Position numbers and translations under genes: made by a program. From an unicellular cyanobacterium SU3 (GTDB lineage: Bacteria; Cyanobacteriota; Cyanobacteriia; Cyanobacteriales; Microcystaceae): DNA of 53,934 bases. This document shows positions 1,045-49,395 of this stretch, in pieces; within the stretch, counting starts at the first letter, position 1; every line of letters starts with the position of its first letter. The stretch spans positions 1-53,934 of the forward strand of contig NETF01000170.1 in assembly GCA_002172675.1 (NCBI GenBank), in the 5' to 3' direction. The notes below the pieces were generated by a model. The model made no database searches and was not told where the DNA came from. It saw only the letters and a list, made by a program, of their open reading frames with translations.

Positions 1045-3744
<2,700 letters not shown>

Positions 3745-41931: not shown

Positions 41932-42063
41932 TAGACTGGTCGAAATTCCCGTCGAAGACCCGTAAAGCACCCGCACCTAAAATGTGAGCATTTCTTTAAG
42001 AATTTATAGGTGGGAACTTCTTTCAACATTCAGGTTAAAAGAAGGCTTATGTTTCCGATTTGA
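41932..42063. other. Spacer between the CheW-like gene and the tRNA
   Basis: No gene is supported. A minus-strand frame (41932-42010) contains 'RCGCFTGLRREFRPVY' and looks like a decayed end of some protein, but I cannot place it. Confidence 0.25.
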
Positions 42064-42135
42064 CTGGGGTGCTAGGATTCGAACCTAGGAATGGCGAGAC
42101 CAAAACCCGCTGCCTTACCGCTTGGCTACACCCCA
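42064..42135 (-). tRNA. trnQ: tRNA-Gln (UUG)
   Basis: Read on the minus strand the acceptor stem is TGGGGTG paired with CACCCCA, discriminator G. The anticodon stem GCGGG/CTCGC holds the loop TTTTGGT, giving anticodon TTG. The T arm is CCTAG GTTCGAATC CTAG. The 3' CCA is not encoded, as is common in cyanobacteria. The 72 bases match Gln tRNAs. It lies antisense to the operons on both sides. Confidence 0.95.
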
Positions 42136-42413
42136 ATATTCATTATTGCCTCTGTAATTATAACAATAGGCATCGGTGGTTTGTCAAGTATTTTTTTATC
42201 TTTGAAGCGTAAGACCCTCATGTCCCCCATCATTTCTGAAAATTAGTAATTATTGTTAACTTTCCCTCTTTAGATAGATGTAATAAAGAAAAATTTTCCA
42301 ATTGTACATAAATATCTATCATCTGAACGATTTTTTCCTCTGTCTAAATCGTTATATTAATATATGTTTTACAAAACTTAATAAAGCAAAAACGATAGAT
42401 AGTTGAATTAAGA

Positions 42414-42986
42414 ATGAGGCATTTATTCAAACAAAAACCTTACCCTATAAAACAAATAGCTTTTAGTCTTTTAAGCGCGACTTTGCTCTTTTGTGCAGGT
42501 TGCGGTTCTCAGCAAACTCAGGCCAGTGATGGATCTGAACAACCCTTAAAAACCGTAGGATGGATAGAAAAAGGGAGTATTGTTGGCTTAGACGAACCCT
42601 TAGAGTTTAAACTAGATACAGGAGCCACCACAACCTCTATTAACGCTGAAGTTCTTAGTAAACCTTATAATGAAACCGAAGCCGGTGGGATGATCAAATT
42701 CCGTTTTATTGATGGAGATGAGACAAGCGCAGTATTTGAACGTCCTATTACTCGTTGGGTGAAAATTAAAGACGGTGAAGGGGGTCATTTTCGTCGTCCG
42801 GTGGTTGAGATGAAACTATGTATTGCAGGCCGATGGGTAGAAGAAGAGGTTAACCTAGCTGATCGCGATCAATTTAATTATTCTGTTTTAATAGGGCGTA
42901 ATATGCTCAAAAAAGGTAATTTAGCCATTGATTCTAATCAAAAATTCACCAACAAGTCTGAATGTAAAGGACAGGAGGTGGAATAA
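42414..42986 (+). CDS. Retropepsin-like aspartic protease, lipoprotein (RimK-associated)
   Basis: The protein has a signal peptide with a hydrophobic run and a lipobox ending 'FCAGC' (Cys30), so it should be lipid-anchored outside the plasma membrane. The core is a single retropepsin half: 'LEFKLDTGATTTSINAEVL' carries Asp68-Thr-Gly, the aspartic protease motif. The C-terminal 'YSVLIGRNMLKKGNLAIDS' is the flap-closing strand seen in this family (once called 'ATP-dependent Zn protease', a misnomer). Retropepsins work as dimers. It is the first gene of a set with a UUP1-type membrane protein and an ATP-grasp ligase; its stop overlaps the next start by one base (TAATG). Confidence 0.85.
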   Translation: MRHLFKQKPYPIKQIAFSLLSATLLFCAGCGSQQTQASDGSEQPLKTVGWIEKGSIVGLDEPLEFKLDTGATTTSINAEVLSKPYNETEAGGMIKFRFIDGDETSAVFERPITRWVKIKDGEGGHFRRPVVEMKLCIAGRWVEEEVNLADRDQFNYSVLIGRNMLKKGNLAIDSNQKFTNKSECKGQEVE

Positions 42987-44620
42987 TGAATCGCACGGTA
43001 CGTACTGTTATTTTAGCTCTTTTTCTTTGCGCTATTTCTTTAACTATATTTTTGCATAAAGTTATTTCTTCAGATATTCCTTTATTTCCCGATCAAACTT
43101 ACCAGAGTTGGTATGTTGAAACTAAAGTTTTTATTGACTCAGAACGGTCTTTACTGTCTTCAGAAGAAGAACTTCCCGATCTGATCGAAGTTCAATTACC
43201 GCAATTTTCATCCCGTTATCGCCTCATTGATGAGGATTTTATCAATGATGGTTATGAGAGAGAAATCGAAACCAGAAAGCCTTTTAATAATCGTGTTGCA
43301 GTCTTTAATAACACAGGAATTATAGGAAGCAAAACCTTATTTTATCGTACAATTATTGATGAAAAAGGGTTTTCTGATGATTCAAATCCCACAGATGAAC
43401 CCGTATCTATTACCGGTCGTCGCTTAGTTAATCAACAGTTTAATGAGTTTAGTGAAGATCGAGCGGAAATTTTAGAAGAATTGATGGAAAATGCCCCCGA
43501 TGGTGCCATTGACTCCCTCTTAAGAGAAGCCAAAAGCCGATCAAGCGATCGCCTTACCTTAGCACAAGCGGTGTATGAACTGGCTTTGCGAACAGATGAT
43601 ATTCGCATTCAAACCTTAATCGAAACCCTTAATGTAGATGATTCAGCACCGAAAATTGCTGTATTTCTCTTAAAAAGGGCGCAAGTGCCTGCTAGGGTAG
43701 GCAATGGTATTAAATTAACCAAAGAAGAAGTCTATTCAACGGATTTTATTCAATGGTTAGAAGTGCAACAAGAAAATAGCGATCGCTGGTTAGCTTTCGA
43801 TTCGGTTAATCTCAGTTTCACTGAAGAAACCCCCTATTTAACCTGGTGGTATGGTTCCCAAGATCCTATGACTGTCACGGGTTCAGGGGATGTGCGTTTA
43901 GAAGTATTGGTACGTCCCAACACGGATGAGGGGTTAACTCAAGCAATTTGGCAAGAAAGAGCTAGTTTTGACCCATTTTTAAACTATTCTTTACTAAAAC
44001 TTCCCCTCACCACTCAAAGAGTATTTCAGGTATTGGTATTAGTTCCCATCGGTGCGTTAATTATTGCCCTGTTACATCAAGTGATTGGTATTCCCACCTT
44101 TGGCACCTTTACCCCTATTTTAATCGCCCTATCCTTTAGAGAAACCGGGTTAATGGTAGGTATTCCCCTATTTATTCTTGTTGTTGCTTTAGGGTTACTT
44201 ATTCGGGCTGGATTAAACTATTTACAGTTATTGATTGTCCCCCGTTTGGCTTCTATTTTAACCGCTACCGTGTTAATTATGGGTGCATTAGCGGTGATAA
44301 TGGAACATTTCAACATTAACCTTGGCCTGTCTATTTCCCTATTCCCCATTGTTATTTTAGCCATGACCATCGAACGGGCTGCAGTAATGTGGGAAGAAGA
44401 AGGAGCAAAAAATGTGATTATTTCAGGGTTAGGTAGTGTTTTTGTGGCAACTATTGGCTATTTCTGTACTATTAATGATTACGTACAGCATATTGCCTTT
44501 GCTTTTCCTGAATTATTGTTAATGGTATTAGCGGTCAATATCCTTCTAGGACGCTATAACGGCTATAAATTAACCGAATATCTAAGGTTTCGTGCCTTAC
44601 AACAGCAAATGAGTCAGTAA
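42986..44620 (+). CDS. UUP1-family membrane protein: inactive transglutaminase plus 7TM
   Basis: An N-terminal helix (about 7-25) leads to an extracytoplasmic domain of about 320 residues. This domain resembles a transglutaminase/cysteine protease fold ('SSDRLTLAQAVYELALRTDD', 'AVFLLKRAQVPARVGNGIKL') in which the usual catalytic Cys is absent at the helix start. Seven transmembrane helices then follow from about 345 to 520 ('VLVLVPIGALIIALLHQVIG', 'PTFGTFTPILIALSF' and onward). UUP1 proteins keep company with RimK-like ligases and retropepsins. A role in presenting or exporting a ligated peptide is an inference from that company. Confidence 0.85.
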   Translation: MNRTVRTVILALFLCAISLTIFLHKVISSDIPLFPDQTYQSWYVETKVFIDSERSLLSSEEELPDLIEVQLPQFSSRYRLIDEDFINDGYEREIETRKPFNNRVAVFNNTGIIGSKTLFYRTIIDEKGFSDDSNPTDEPVSITGRRLVNQQFNEFSEDRAEILEELMENAPDGAIDSLLREAKSRSSDRLTLAQAVYELALRTDDIRIQTLIETLNVDDSAPKIAVFLLKRAQVPARVGNGIKLTKEEVYSTDFIQWLEVQQENSDRWLAFDSVNLSFTEETPYLTWWYGSQDPMTVTGSGDVRLEVLVRPNTDEGLTQAIWQERASFDPFLNYSLLKLPLTTQRVFQVLVLVPIGALIIALLHQVIGIPTFGTFTPILIALSFRETGLMVGIPLFILVVALGLLIRAGLNYLQLLIVPRLASILTATVLIMGALAVIMEHFNINLGLSISLFPIVILAMTIERAAVMWEEEGAKNVIISGLGSVFVATIGYFCTINDYVQHIAFAFPELLLMVLAVNILLGRYNGYKLTEYLRFRALQQQMSQ

Positions 44621-44627
44621 CCAGTAA

Positions 44628-44648
44628 GGGTTTAATATTATTAAACCC
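44628..44648 (+). other. Intercistronic hairpin
   Basis: GGGTTTAA (44628-44635) and TTAAACCC (44641-44648) form a perfect 8-bp stem with loop TATTA, in the 70-bp gap between the UUP1-type gene and the ligase gene. It has no T tract, so it more likely tunes expression or mRNA stability within the operon than ends it. Confidence 0.5.
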
Positions 44649-44690
44649 CCACACCCTACAAAACTATTGTTATCATCATTCATAATCATC

Positions 44691-45659
44691 ATGTTGCCTT
44701 TTTTATTTAATAAAAAATCAGGAATTTTAGGAATTAATTCCCGTAACCTTGATTATTTATTTCCTAATAATCCCCGACGACTCTATCGCTATGCAGATAG
44801 TAAGTTAGAAACAAAAAAAATTGCTCAACGGTTAGGGGTAAGTATCCCTGAAACCTATGGAGTGATTCACTTTCAAAACGAAGTTAAAAAACTAGCCGAT
44901 ATTGTTAGAAAAGCCTCTTCTTTTGTGGTTAAACCAGCCAAAGGAAGCGGAGGAGATGGCATCGTTGTCATTAAAGATACCACCGAAGACGGTTATCTTA
45001 AAAGTAGTGGAAAACTCCTTAAACCCCACGATCTCCACTATCATATTCATAATATTCTCAGTGGAATGTTCTCCCTATCAGGACAAAAAGATAAGGCTAT
45101 TCTTGAATATGCAGTTAAGTTTGATCCTATCTTTGCAGAGGTAGCTTATCAAGGGGTTCCTGATATTCGTCTCATTGTCTATCAAGGGGTTCCCGTTATG
45201 GCCATGTTACGCTTACCCACCCGGTCCTCTGATGGGAAAGCAAACCTTCACCGTGGGGGGGTTGGGGTTGGTATCGACTTGGGAACAGGGAAAACCTTTA
45301 CAGGGATTCAAAATAACCGCTATATTAGTCAACACCCGGAAACCGGTAGTCCCTTAAAAGGGTTATCTATTCCTCACTGGAAACGATTATTAGAAATGTC
45401 GGCTGCTTTGGGGAATGAGACAGAGTTCGGTTATTTGGGAGTTGATTTTGTTCTCGATGAGAATAAAGGGCCGTTATTATTAGAGATGAATGCACGACCA
45501 GGGTTATCCATTCAAATTGCTAACCAAACAGGACTTATCCCACGGTTAGAGTTAATTAATGATTGTTTGCCAAAATTATCAACAACTCAAGAAAAAATTG
45601 AGTTTGCTCAAGATTCTTTTAGTTTAGCATCTCGTGAACCCGTATTGTCTGTGAGATGA
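44691..45659 (+). CDS. RimK-like ATP-grasp ligase (alpha-L-glutamate ligase-like)
   Basis: I use the ATG at 44691, which begins MLPFLFNKKSGILGINSRNLDYL; the frame extends to 44667 by TTG. The ATP-grasp core has 'FVVKPAKGSGGDGIVVI' (ATP-binding loop), 'ILEYAVK', 'RLIVYQGVPVMAMLRLPT' and the metal-site end 'GYLGVDFVLDENKGPLLLEMNARPGLSIQIAN', with the typical Glu-Asn pair. RimK-related enzymes add glutamate or similar residues to a carboxylate by an acyl-phosphate. It is the last gene of the three-gene set and is followed by a terminator. It is cytosolic and the acceptor is unknown. Confidence 0.85.
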   Translation: MLPFLFNKKSGILGINSRNLDYLFPNNPRRLYRYADSKLETKKIAQRLGVSIPETYGVIHFQNEVKKLADIVRKASSFVVKPAKGSGGDGIVVIKDTTEDGYLKSSGKLLKPHDLHYHIHNILSGMFSLSGQKDKAILEYAVKFDPIFAEVAYQGVPDIRLIVYQGVPVMAMLRLPTRSSDGKANLHRGGVGVGIDLGTGKTFTGIQNNRYISQHPETGSPLKGLSIPHWKRLLEMSAALGNETEFGYLGVDFVLDENKGPLLLEMNARPGLSIQIANQTGLIPRLELINDCLPKLSTTQEKIEFAQDSFSLASREPVLSVR

Positions 45660-45709
45660 GTGGATATTATGCTAATTAATAAATTATGAATTGTCAATTC
45701 AGGTTGTGA

Positions 45710-45735
45710 GGAAGGCTTTTAAATCTTCCTTTTTT
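45710..45735 (+). terminator. Rho-independent terminator of the retropepsin-UUP1-ligase operon
   Basis: GGAAG (45710-45714) pairs with CTTCC (45725-45729) around a 10-base loop, followed by six T (45730-45735). It lies about 50 bp after the ligase stop. Confidence 0.75.
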
Positions 45736-45865
45736 AGCTTTTCTTTGACAAAGTTTTCTTGTTCGATAGTAAGAATAATTGACATAGTTGTAATCCCTGT
45801 TTTTCGCCTTCTTCCATAGCATATACCATCGACAAGATTAAATCTTCACCCCTAAATTTAGTTAT
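45734..45865 (-). pseudogene. Unassigned decayed coding fragment
   Basis: A minus-strand frame opens after a stop near 45866 and reads 'KFRGEDLILSMVYAMEEGEK' before stopping at 45734-45736. The charged, Gly-containing end resembles the tail of Rpn-type (recombination-promoting nuclease) proteins, but this is weak. A second frame at 45701-45787 reads 'MSIILTIEQENFVKEKLKK', like the start of a ParD-type antitoxin. I cannot decide between them. The rest of the 337-bp gap to 45996 shows nothing clear. Confidence 0.25.
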
Positions 45866-45996
45866 AGTCTATTAAGACTTTGTTAAGCCCTTGGAGATCA
45901 ATTATTTGCAAAATGCAAAATTATCTCCCAGAATTGTCAACTATCCACTACAATAGAAAAAACAGATGAGTAAATGTACTATCACAATAAATACTT

Positions 45997-46269
45997 ATGA
46001 CCAGTGCTAAGTTTCAAAACCCTGTGTCTCTTTCTGGCCGAGAAATGCAAATTGTCGATCTCGTCTCCACTGGTTTGACTAATCTTGAAATTGCCCAGAA
46101 ACTTGAGATTAGTAAGCGTACCGTTGATAATCATATCAGCAACATTTTGACGAAAACCAAAACAGAAAATCGGGTAGAATTAGTTCGCTGGGCGTTGCAA
46201 TGGGGTAAAGTTTGCCTCGATGATGTTAATTGTTGTCTCCTTCCTTCTAATAGCGACGTTGCATCCTAA
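45997..46269 (+). CDS. pedR: Small LuxR-type redox-responsive regulator
   Basis: The 90-residue protein is little more than a LuxR helix-turn-helix: 'LSGREMQIVDLVSTGLTNLEIAQKLEISKRTVDNHISNILTKT'. It ends with a short tail holding Cys73, Cys79 and Cys80. This matches PedR (Ssl0564 in Synechocystis), which senses photosynthetic electron transport through thioredoxin-linked disulfide formation and controls light-response genes. The same size and the tail Cys support the name. The gene starts a two-gene arrangement: the downstream lipoprotein frame begins inside its 3' end. Confidence 0.85.
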   Translation: MTSAKFQNPVSLSGREMQIVDLVSTGLTNLEIAQKLEISKRTVDNHISNILTKTKTENRVELVRWALQWGKVCLDDVNCCLLPSNSDVAS

Positions 46270-46819
46270 ACGGTTGAGTGGTTACATCAAGCTTTTAAGT
46301 AGCAGTATTATTCTTAGTTTAGTCGGTTGTACTAATTCAGGATTTATCACGCCTCCCGTTCAACCTTTAGGAAATAGTTTAAATACGCGAGCGTCCGAAC
46401 AGTATCCCCGCTTTTCTTACGAGGGTAGATATTTGATCTTTGCCTCTGACCGTCAAGGAAAGCGTAGCGTATGGCTATACGACCAAACGAATGGCCGTTT
46501 GTTACCTTTGCCTGGATTGAATCAGCCTGGCACCATCCAAGATCAACCTGATATTAGTGCTGACGGACGTTACATCGTTTATGTTTCCGAACAAGAAGGA
46601 AAACAAGATATTTTTGTTTATGATCGCCAAACGTCACGGGCTAATAATATTACTAAAAATATACTAGGAGAAGTGCGCCATCCCACCATTAGCGGAAATG
46701 GCCGCTTAATTGCCTTTGAGTCTAACCGTTCAGGACAATGGGATATTATTATTTATGATCGCGGTTTAAATACGCCTTTATCCCTTCCCTCTCAGTCGGA
46801 TATAGAACCTCAAAATTAG
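46220..46819 (+). CDS. TolB-like beta-propeller lipoprotein (short)
   Basis: Three PD40/TolB-type repeats are visible: 'YPRFSYEGRYLIFASDRQGKRSVWLYDQT', 'QPDISADGRYIVYVSEQEGKQDIFVYDRQ' and 'HPTISGNGRLIAFESNRSGQWDIIIYDRG'. A hydrophobic leader with a lipobox, 'ILSLVGC', is found near residue 37. The start is uncertain: ATG 46220 overlaps pedR by 50 bases, but TTG at 46259 would place the basic 'HPKRLSG' of the signal peptide at the front, which looks more natural. It is shorter than TolB (about 430 residues), so it is a stand-alone propeller fragment. It probably sits in the outer membrane or periplasm. Confidence 0.8.
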   Translation: MMLIVVSFLLIATLHPKRLSGYIKLLSSSIILSLVGCTNSGFITPPVQPLGNSLNTRASEQYPRFSYEGRYLIFASDRQGKRSVWLYDQTNGRLLPLPGLNQPGTIQDQPDISADGRYIVYVSEQEGKQDIFVYDRQTSRANNITKNILGEVRHPTISGNGRLIAFESNRSGQWDIIIYDRGLNTPLSLPSQSDIEPQN

Positions 46820-48036: not shown

Positions 48037-49395
48037 TTATGAGGATAAATCACTAACTAAAGGGGTAGGATAAGCATTAAAATGAGCCTTTCTGAGAGCC
48101 TCGACCACTGATTGATCATTTTGTACCCAATAATCTTGTCCTAAGCGAATTAACTGGCGATTTTCTCCGCTTCCGATAATAGCAATAACAGGAACTTTTG
48201 CTTTATTTTTATCTCCAGAATGTTCTTGAAGAATTCCTTTTAAACTATGATAAGAAACTTGATTCATTGCTTGTTCCAGACTCAAGTTTACCATCACCAT
48301 TCTCACCGTTTCTACGGGTTCGGCATCTTCAACAATTAACTGAACTTTATCATCTCGATAATCAACTTTTCCCCAAACAATGAGGCGGGAATCTTCAACT
48401 AAAATCTCTCGAATTCTTTTATAAGCTTCAGGAAAACAAACCCCTTCTACCTGCGCTGAACCATCTTCTAAGACTAAAAAAGCCATGGGATCTCCTTTTT
48501 TTGTCGTGTATTGTTTAACTTCATTAGCCATAACAACAGCACTCACTTTTGTCCTTGCTTTCTGCTCTGCCATTTCATTTAAGTTGATGGGAGATAAAAT
48601 TTTAGCAGCTTTTTTGACCGCCGTTAACGGGTGTTCAGACACATAAAAACCGAGATGTTCTTTTTCTAATTTTAATTTATCTTGTAATGAATAATCTTCT
48701 ACAGGAGAAGCACTGGGAGCGTGTTTAAAATCAGTATTTGATTCTGTTGTTTCCGTATCATTACCGCTCATTAGGTCAAAAATATTTAACTGTCCACTTT
48801 CTTTTTCTTTTGTTCTTTTTTGCGCCCAAGGAACAACTAATTCTAAATCATTAATTAATTGTTTGCGATTGGGATTAATGGCATCAAAGGCTCCGGCATA
48901 AACTAAGGTTTCTAATGCCCTTTTATTAACAGAACGTAAATCAACCCGACAGCAAAAATCTGCTAAAGATTCAAATGCGCCTTCTGCTTCTTCCCTTGCT
49001 TTTAAAATGTTATCAATTGCTCCTTCTCCTAAATTTCTAACCGCCGAAAAACCAAAAAGAATTTGTGTTCCTACAGGGGTAAAATCTTTTTGTGAGCGAT
49101 TGATATCGGGGGGTAAAACATCAATGCCCATTTTTTGGCAGTTTTCCCGATATTTTTCAACTTTATCTTGATTATCGCTACTGGCGGTTAATAAAGCCGT
49201 CATGTATTCAACAGGATAATTAGCCTTTAAATAAGCCGTTTGATAGGTGACATAAGCATAGGCAGTAGAGTGAGATTTATTGAAACAATTAGAGGCAATT
49301 GAGCTATTACCTAACAAAAAATTATGATCCTTTTCCACACCAATATCATAGACTTTTTGCACTCCTAATGACTGACGACCAATAATTTTAACCAT
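48037..49395 (-). CDS. dnaE-C: DNA polymerase III alpha subunit, C-terminal half (DnaE-C)
   Basis: The protein has a 36-residue C-intein followed by the DnaE C-extein beginning Cys37-Phe-Asn. The extein has '[28 protein letters not shown]' and '[15 protein letters not shown]', the helix-hairpin-helix (about 125-210), and the OB domain '[35 protein letters not shown]' (about 280-315). In cyanobacteria dnaE is encoded in two unlinked genes whose products are joined by protein trans-splicing, giving the replicative polymerase subunit. The N-terminal half must be elsewhere. The length of 452 residues is normal for DnaE-C. Confidence 0.97.
49288..49395 (-). other. C-terminal split-intein fragment (DnaE Int-C)
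   Basis: The first 36 codons are the intein: it begins '[20 protein letters not shown]', contains '[10 protein letters not shown]', and ends 'IASN' with the splice-site Asn36, directly before the extein Cys37. It resembles the well-known Synechocystis and Nostoc DnaE Int-C. All residues needed at the junction are present. Confidence 0.95.

Follow-up and report, generated by a model that had tools for sequence, protein, structure and literature searches.

An rloABC-type operon encoding a lipoprotein-like retropepsin, an inactive-transglutaminase membrane protein and a RimK-like ligase in a unicellular cyanobacterium

The rloA-rloB-rloC operon was described for Pseudomonas aeruginosa in 2025 (PMC12239564). 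In this bacterium, the protease RloA cleaves runs of at least eight glutamates: 8E and 10E are cut, chains of 6E and below are not. Its catalytic residue is D48, while K46, R92, R114 and R137 provide pseudosymmetric Glu contacts; the flap contacts R99 and K109 are not always conserved. Periplasmic forms of RloA carry a disulfide, which is lacking in RimB. The growth defect of a triple rloA mutant is rescued by deletion of rloB or rloC, and rlo mutants show cell-shape and cell-wall-antibiotic phenotypes. In Pseudomonas, the rlo genes influence how cells tolerate osmotic stress, form biofilm and respond to cell-wall drugs. Proteobacteria contributed 96% of the RloB hits, and cyanobacteria are named in the main text only in a reference title (PMC12239564). 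In another bacterium, vesicle production was altered when a gene whose product combines an inactive transglutaminase and seven transmembrane helices (7TM) had been disrupted (PMC12096838). Here we analysed a stretch of 53,934 nt from the unicellular cyanobacterium SU3 (contig NETF01000170.1 of assembly GCA_002172675.1; from here: the window), in which a retropepsin, an inactive-transglutaminase 7TM protein and a RimK-like ligase had been predicted to form one operon.

Three further systems are comparable in part. The RimB-RimK (RimABK) pair for the glutamylation of S6 likewise combines a retropepsin with a poly-alpha-Glu ligase, and the triad and fold of the ligase are shared, whereas RimB is cytosolic and lacks both the signal and the disulfide Cys (PMC12239564), and a membrane partner does not belong to the pair. 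The cyanophycin synthetase CphA1 is a cyanobacterial amino-acid polymer enzyme which also contains a RimK-like ATP-grasp domain. Unlike the rlo proteins, it is a soluble multidomain enzyme that makes a cytosolic storage polymer and has neither a membrane nor a protease partner. In the PgsBCA system for poly-gamma-glutamate, an amide ligase and a membrane partner make and move the polymer, which is trimmed by a hydrolase. Here the differences are that PgsB is not of the RimK ATP-grasp type, that the linkage is gamma and that there is no 7TM_transglut protein.

The trio of SU3 and its identity with the rlo system

The three genes are located on the same strand of the window in the order RloA-like, RloB-like and RloC-like, with the following features:

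42414..42986, plus strand: RloA-like retropepsin, 190 amino acids (aa) (open reading frame (ORF), PF05618)
42986..44620, plus strand: RloB-like protein, 544 aa (ORF, PF14400 and PF14402)
43073..44005, plus strand: RloB domain with transglutaminase fold, on the predicted outer side of the membrane (Foldseek match 3isr; catalytic Cys absent)
44006..44617, plus strand: 7TM part of RloB (PF14402; invariant residues in 52 rows)
44691..45659, plus strand: RloC-like ATP-grasp ligase, 322 aa (ORF, PF14397 and TIGR02291)
45444-45446, 45483-45485 and 45489-45491, plus strand: RloC triad D252, E265 and N267 (alignment)

The first two genes overlap by a single base (TAATG), with the stop codon TAA at 42984-42986 and the ATG at 42986-42988. 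The RloC-like ORF was listed from a TTG at 44667; the ATG at 44691 instead fits the starts of relatives (the Met of locus L008), hence the gap between RloB and RloC is exactly 70 bp. The coordinates of the original prediction, namely three consecutive genes with a one-base overlap and a 70-bp gap, were thus confirmed, and the Pfam and NCBIfam matches agree with its three family assignments.

The trio is almost certainly an rloABC-type operon in the broad sense. The three families are adjacent in A-B-C order, a transglutaminase domain without Cys is joined to a 7TM part, and the retropepsin possesses a signal-like N-terminus, a disulfide Cys pair, the active-site Asp and the four main Glu contacts. 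The operon of P. aeruginosa and other Gammaproteobacteria shares the families, their order and strand, a secreted retropepsin with the main Glu contacts and disulfide Cys, an inactive transglutaminase with 7TM and an ATP-grasp ligase (PMC12239564). The window differs from Pseudomonas in the cyanobacterial host, a lipoprotein-like RloA, a shorter flap and NCBIfam scores for RloA and RloB below the cut-offs. The system itself is therefore not an undescribed one. As far as we have searched, what is new is a rare, apparently mobile cyanobacterial branch with a lipoprotein-like RloA and a natural 7TM-ligase fusion; in the collection of full-text literature searched for Rlo, family and protease names, no paper on a cyanobacterial rlo copy was recognised.

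The retropepsin of the window matches PF05618 at 7.6e-24. Its hydrophobic N-terminal signal segment with Cys30 (42501-42503), judged by eye, is lipoprotein-like, and the protein is probably a lipoprotein. The label given in the original prediction stands to this extent, but not as a strict lipobox: the Cys at position -3 breaks what we take to be the PROSITE rule, so that lipoprotein status is not strict. A signal segment ending in Cys was also read in all five RloA sequences of the main cyanobacterial clade, and in neither of the two from genomes G507 and G420. The catalytic residue is D68 within DTGA (42615-42617). In the alignment with chains 9g58 and 9g59, K66, D68, R114, R128 and R151 of the window correspond to K46, D48, R92, R114 and R137 of P. 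aeruginosa RloA, and Cys136 and Cys184 align with the conserved disulfide pair. Residues of the window protein were counted by hand; the published numbers (PMC12239564) were placed on chain 9g58 by counting from the Asp of DTG, which yielded basic residues at all given positions. In 74 RloA relatives, D48, R114 and R137 are present without exception (74/74 each), position 46 is K in 60 and R in 14, R92 occurs in 63/74, and the first and second disulfide Cys in 62/74 and 50/74; the window has all of them. Compared with chain 9g58, the window protein has a flap with about 8 residues fewer. RimB is a poor description of this protein, given its signal segment and a score of 28.2 bits against the RimB model NF052261 (cut-off 200). 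A separate RimB-like gene without a signal segment is present elsewhere in the same genome (G000:C72:34667-35068).

The RloB-like protein matches PF14402 (2.8e-88) and PF14400 (5.1e-22). It consists of an N-terminal transmembrane helix, an inactive transglutaminase-fold domain (about residues 30-340) and a 7TM domain (about residues 343-526). Its structural model has a predicted local distance difference test (pLDDT) score of 85.8, and the predicted topology places the transglutaminase domain outside and the C-terminus inside. The modelling called for by the original prediction gave, for the outer domain, a best Foldseek match to the transglutaminase-fold cysteine protease 3isr (8.2e-08). Over the columns that correspond to residues 218-290, and over the 25 columns preceding them, none of the 84 non-fused rows has any Cys; judged by sequence, this domain is catalytically dead. 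In the 7TM part, G373, T374, F375, R407, R420, E463 and R534 are invariant in 52 rows.

The RloC-like protein matches PF14397 (1.9e-85) and passes the cut-off of TIGR02291 (399.6 versus 314.2 bits). D252, E265 and N267, which we take to be the metal/ATP triad, are invariant in 42/42 RloC rows and aligned with RimK positions 248, 260 and 262; a ligase with a damaged ATP-grasp triad would have spoken against the original prediction, and the triad is intact. The model (pLDDT 92.7) has RimK as its nearest solved structures in Foldseek (4iwx, 6.7e-11; 5zk6; 5zct), with template-modelling scores of about 0.5; the matches also include ArgX (3vpb) and cyanophycin synthetase (7wae). Both the fold and the Asp-Glu-Asn triad of RimK-type ATP-grasp ligases are hence present.

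Distribution, gene order and a natural fusion

PF14402 was detected in 2/386 genomes of a phylum sample and in 6/388 genomes of an order sample, with no match in any of 8 congeners (genomes 79-99% complete). The two samples overlap, and the genome of the window (G000) as well as G172 belong to both. This distribution does not support a typically cyanobacterial system. Above its cut-off, TIGR02291 was found in the same 2/386 genomes, besides weak matches below the cut-off in 11 others. The shared phylogenetic profile asked for by the original prediction hence exists for the 7TM protein and the ligase; coincidence in the same two genomes would have a chance of 1 in 74,305 under independence of the genomes, an assumption that does not hold. 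PF05618 is more widespread (62/386 genomes); second copies were inspected in G000 and in G172, and both are RimB-like. Fused RimB-RimK proteins may exist in five cyanobacterial genomes (G266, G272, G348, G372 and G378), where a PF05618 match and a weak C-terminal match to a RimK-type ligase model were found close to each other, both in open frames of equal length (471 or 485 aa).

All six RloB-bearing genomes of the order sample have RloC next to RloB or joined to it in one protein: G416, G420 and G507 have the A-B-C order, G438 has a fusion. Among the hits, Chlorogloeopsis fritschii and Atlanticothrix silvestris are named cyanobacterial carriers, and the trio of the window is closely related to theirs. 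For a broader comparison, 80 loci from a genome scan were combined with those of the window, G172 and two plasmid records to give 84 loci; the 80 were found via RloB as the best of a candidate list of limited length and are not a census. RloB and RloC are adjacent in the same order in 84/84 loci, and RloA precedes them in 74/84; of the remaining 10, five lie at a contig end and five have room but no RloA. The order, the conservation of which the original prediction had wanted tested, is thus conserved.

That three genes with unrelated jobs stand together by chance is a notion to which we give next to no credence. In our view, it is refuted by this gene order, by the fused 7TM-ligase protein and by the published genetic suppression.

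In G438, a single open frame of 682 aa (L122:7555-9603) contains PF14402 (residues 90-294, 7.1e-40) followed by PF14397 (residues 378-650, 7.8e-75). The fusion has no match to transglutaminase families, and no RloA is adjacent to it. It agrees with the predicted cytosolic C-terminus of RloB and counts against a strict need for RloA. The fusion is followed by two genes for proteins that look secreted, one of them containing a putative immunoglobulin domain, and, on the opposite strand, by a gene of DUF3541, a family that was found nowhere else in the ORF set of the loci.

A fourth conserved partner gene was sought among flanking ORFs of at least 150 aa in the 84 loci, in groups of at least 6 loci, and no such gene was found. 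In the large groups (17-40 loci), the ORFs run antisense to RloB or RloC. Groups of 6-9 loci consist of more shadow ORFs, or of neighbours common to loci of Legionella, of Thioalkalivibrio/Ectothiorhodospira or of a 7-locus set, in which the neighbour is presumably UbiH-like.

Proposed synthesis, transfer and trimming of polyglutamate

We lean towards a reading in which RloC makes polyglutamate, RloB receives, exports or presents it and RloA trims it outside. From the fold, the triad and the substrate of RloA, we infer that RloC, as a RimK-like cytosolic ATP-grasp enzyme, would add L-glutamates via alpha-amide bonds, to a free chain or a carrier. RloB, together with RloC at the membrane, would take the acidic product across or present it outside, to which its topology, the invariant Arg residues and the fusion point. 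The Arg residues of the membrane part (R407, R420 and R534) would suit an acidic cargo, and the dead transglutaminase domain may act as a peptide-binding receiver. RloA, probably an envelope-anchored lipoprotein, would cut the chains outside and thereby limit their amount or length. By analogy to P. aeruginosa, such trimming may help the envelope to survive low-osmolarity stress; any role of the trio in cyanobacteria is likewise drawn from that analogy. Cytosolic ligation, handling by the 7TM protein and trimming outside, as proposed in the original prediction, agree with the published rlo genetics and biochemistry; for the window, they remain a proposal by analogy.

Several observations weigh against this reading. 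The window proteins score below the curated NCBIfam cut-offs, with 98.9/210 bits for RloA3, 75.8/250 for RloA2, 64.2/280 for RloA1 and 269.4/900 for RloB, and are hence not filed under these narrow families. The Pseudomonas flap contacts R99 and K109 fall into a gap in the window RloA. In whole-protein Foldseek searches, in which the 7TM part was not searched alone, no convincing solved relative of this part was found, since all three hits at E <=0.001 were chains of 3isr; calling RloB an exporter therefore rests on topology and context. No report of an RloC product or of transport by RloB was found in the literature consulted. The five loci with room upstream of RloBC lack an adjacent RloA (L025, L048, L062, L063 and L076), and in three of these genomes (L025, L048 and L062), one of them the isolate Steroidobacter gossypii, there is no PF05618 match genome-wide. 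In the RloC tree, L025, L048, L062 and L063 form one gammaproteobacterial clade (99/95), and L076 stands apart. Moreover, the fusion occurs in 1/14 genomes of its family, and the sole PF05618 gene of G438 encodes a protein without a signal segment, is followed by a RimK-like ORF and is thus RimB-like, so that G438 seems to be without a secreted RloA.

Alternatively, RloC might glutamylate an envelope precursor or lipid-linked carrier, for instance a peptidoglycan precursor, which RloB presents or flips and from which RloA removes Glu outside. The cell-shape and cell-wall-antibiotic phenotypes of P. aeruginosa (PMC12239564) would suit such a carrier, and the ATP-grasp relative ArgX (3vpb) works on a carrier protein. 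RloA, however, needs about 8 consecutive Glu in vitro (PMC12239564), which speaks for long chains, and the search for a fourth partner in groups of at least 6 loci yielded no carrier gene beside the trio. We consider this alternative rather unlikely.

Still less probable, in our view, is that RloC modifies RloB or another membrane protein and that RloB, instead of being a transporter, acts as a regulated receptor or in signalling. RloB is predicted to have a non-catalytic outer binding domain and an inner C-terminus next to RloC, and RimK does modify a protein tail. Against this, RloA is secreted and could not reach a tail that had been modified in the cytosol, although according to published genetics it takes part in the same process; and the fusion lacking the transglutaminase domain still has the 7TM part and the ligase.

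Returning to polyglutamate synthesis and export, the natural fusion argues for a physical coupling of ligation and the membrane step and offers a single protein for testing it. The occurrence of the bare three-gene cassette in dissimilar contexts points to the trio by itself as the functional unit, and cyanobacteria provide a second, phylogenetically distant setting for the rlo system. Going further, RloB-RloC could tentatively represent a new class of membrane-coupled peptide synthase-exporter, in which the 7TM part, either bound to a RimK-type ligase or forming one chain with it, would export poly-alpha-glutamate during synthesis with RloA as length controller. Such a unit would travel as a self-contained three-gene cassette, and the 7TM-ligase fusion without transglutaminase would be its minimal core. 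This extension is speculative.

Likely acquisition, broken copies and surroundings of the cassette

For the cyanobacterial pairs L119/L120, L121/L009, L121/L008 and L008/L009, the sole DNA match (blastn, E 1e-10) is the trio block, over 3,002-3,114 columns at 71-80% identity. In the RloC tree, five cyanobacterial rows form one clade (100/99) beside a Rickettsiales metagenome-assembled genome (MAG; 98/90); the set that follows (99/94) holds three further alphaproteobacterial MAGs. In this tree, relatives of the window are favoured by the sampling, and the branch of the outgroup is very long. Because only a cassette of about 3 kb is shared between pairs and RloC stands beside alphaproteobacterial MAGs, the trio was likely gained laterally, from the alphaproteobacterial side of the tree. 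Cyanobacteria occur at three spots of the RloC tree. Several separate transfers are not claimed: a single clade of the main group with G507 and G420 was not rejected (approximately unbiased test, p 0.132; fusion row and outgroup left out). The position of the fusion in the RloB tree is meaningless, its branch being very long.

In the eight congeners, the upstream match ends at 42196-42199. Downstream, matching starts at 45716 in G597 and at 45873-46009 in the others, that of G635 stopping at its contig end. Between these flanks, no match of at least 60 bases was found in the fetched pieces of the 8 congeners. A clean empty site was not obtained, as each of the eight carries the two flanks on separate contigs; the junction is rearrangement-prone and not a demonstrated simple insertion.

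In 2/7 cyanobacterial trio loci examined, rloB is broken while rloA and rloC are open. In Chlorogloeopsis fritschii, rloB (L009:3977-5625) is split between two frames. In Atlanticothrix silvestris (L011:1-1252, L123:475-1328), we read an internal loss and an interruption by a transposase-like ORF, next to a contig end. These two cases, of which that in Chlorogloeopsis may be an assembly error, would suit the published genetics, in which loss of the producer is tolerable; RloBC loci without adjacent RloA run counter to this logic. Broken rloB genes, the rarity of the trio and the lack of PF14402 in 8/8 congeners might also mark it as a decaying or newly arrived passenger of little function. With all frames of the window open, its catalytic and main contact residues intact and rloA and rloC still open in both broken copies, we regard this as very improbable.

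Further features of the locus are as follows:

42062..42136, minus strand: tRNA-Gln(TTG) adjoining the cassette upstream (tRNA call)
44628..44648, plus strand: palindrome of 21 bases in the RloB-RloC gap (shuffling test, genome matches)
45708..45738, plus strand: terminator-like hairpin (45708-45731) and T-run closing the set

The hairpin predicted in the gap exists (z -2.33; equally good in 3/200 shuffles). As a shared regulator of the system it was rejected: the gap is only 3-6 bp in the cyanobacterial relatives L008, L009, L119 and L121, where the palindrome was not found, and similar pieces exist elsewhere in the genome; judged from these comparisons, it is private to the window locus. Pieces resembling it occur at three other places of the same genome. 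The predicted closing terminator corresponds to a terminator-like hairpin, with an unremarkable stability when folded within its flanks (z -0.66).

The block 42063-42196/42199 holding the tRNA-Gln gene has a match in 8/8 congeners, and in two of them (G597 and G626) a cheW-like gene lies beside it. In the window, 41935-42042 is the interval between a cheW-like gene and the tRNA-Gln gene; a part of it (~70-100 bases) has many copies in congeners G607, G624 and G635 and one partial second copy in the genome of the window. Downstream, 45997-46819 contains a LuxR-type helix-turn-helix gene and a PD40 beta-propeller repeat gene overlapping by 50 bases, and the DNA of this block is matched in 8/8 congeners. 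Finally, 48037-49395 encodes a C-terminal part of DnaE with an intein-like segment at its start, resembling the split DnaE of cyanobacteria.

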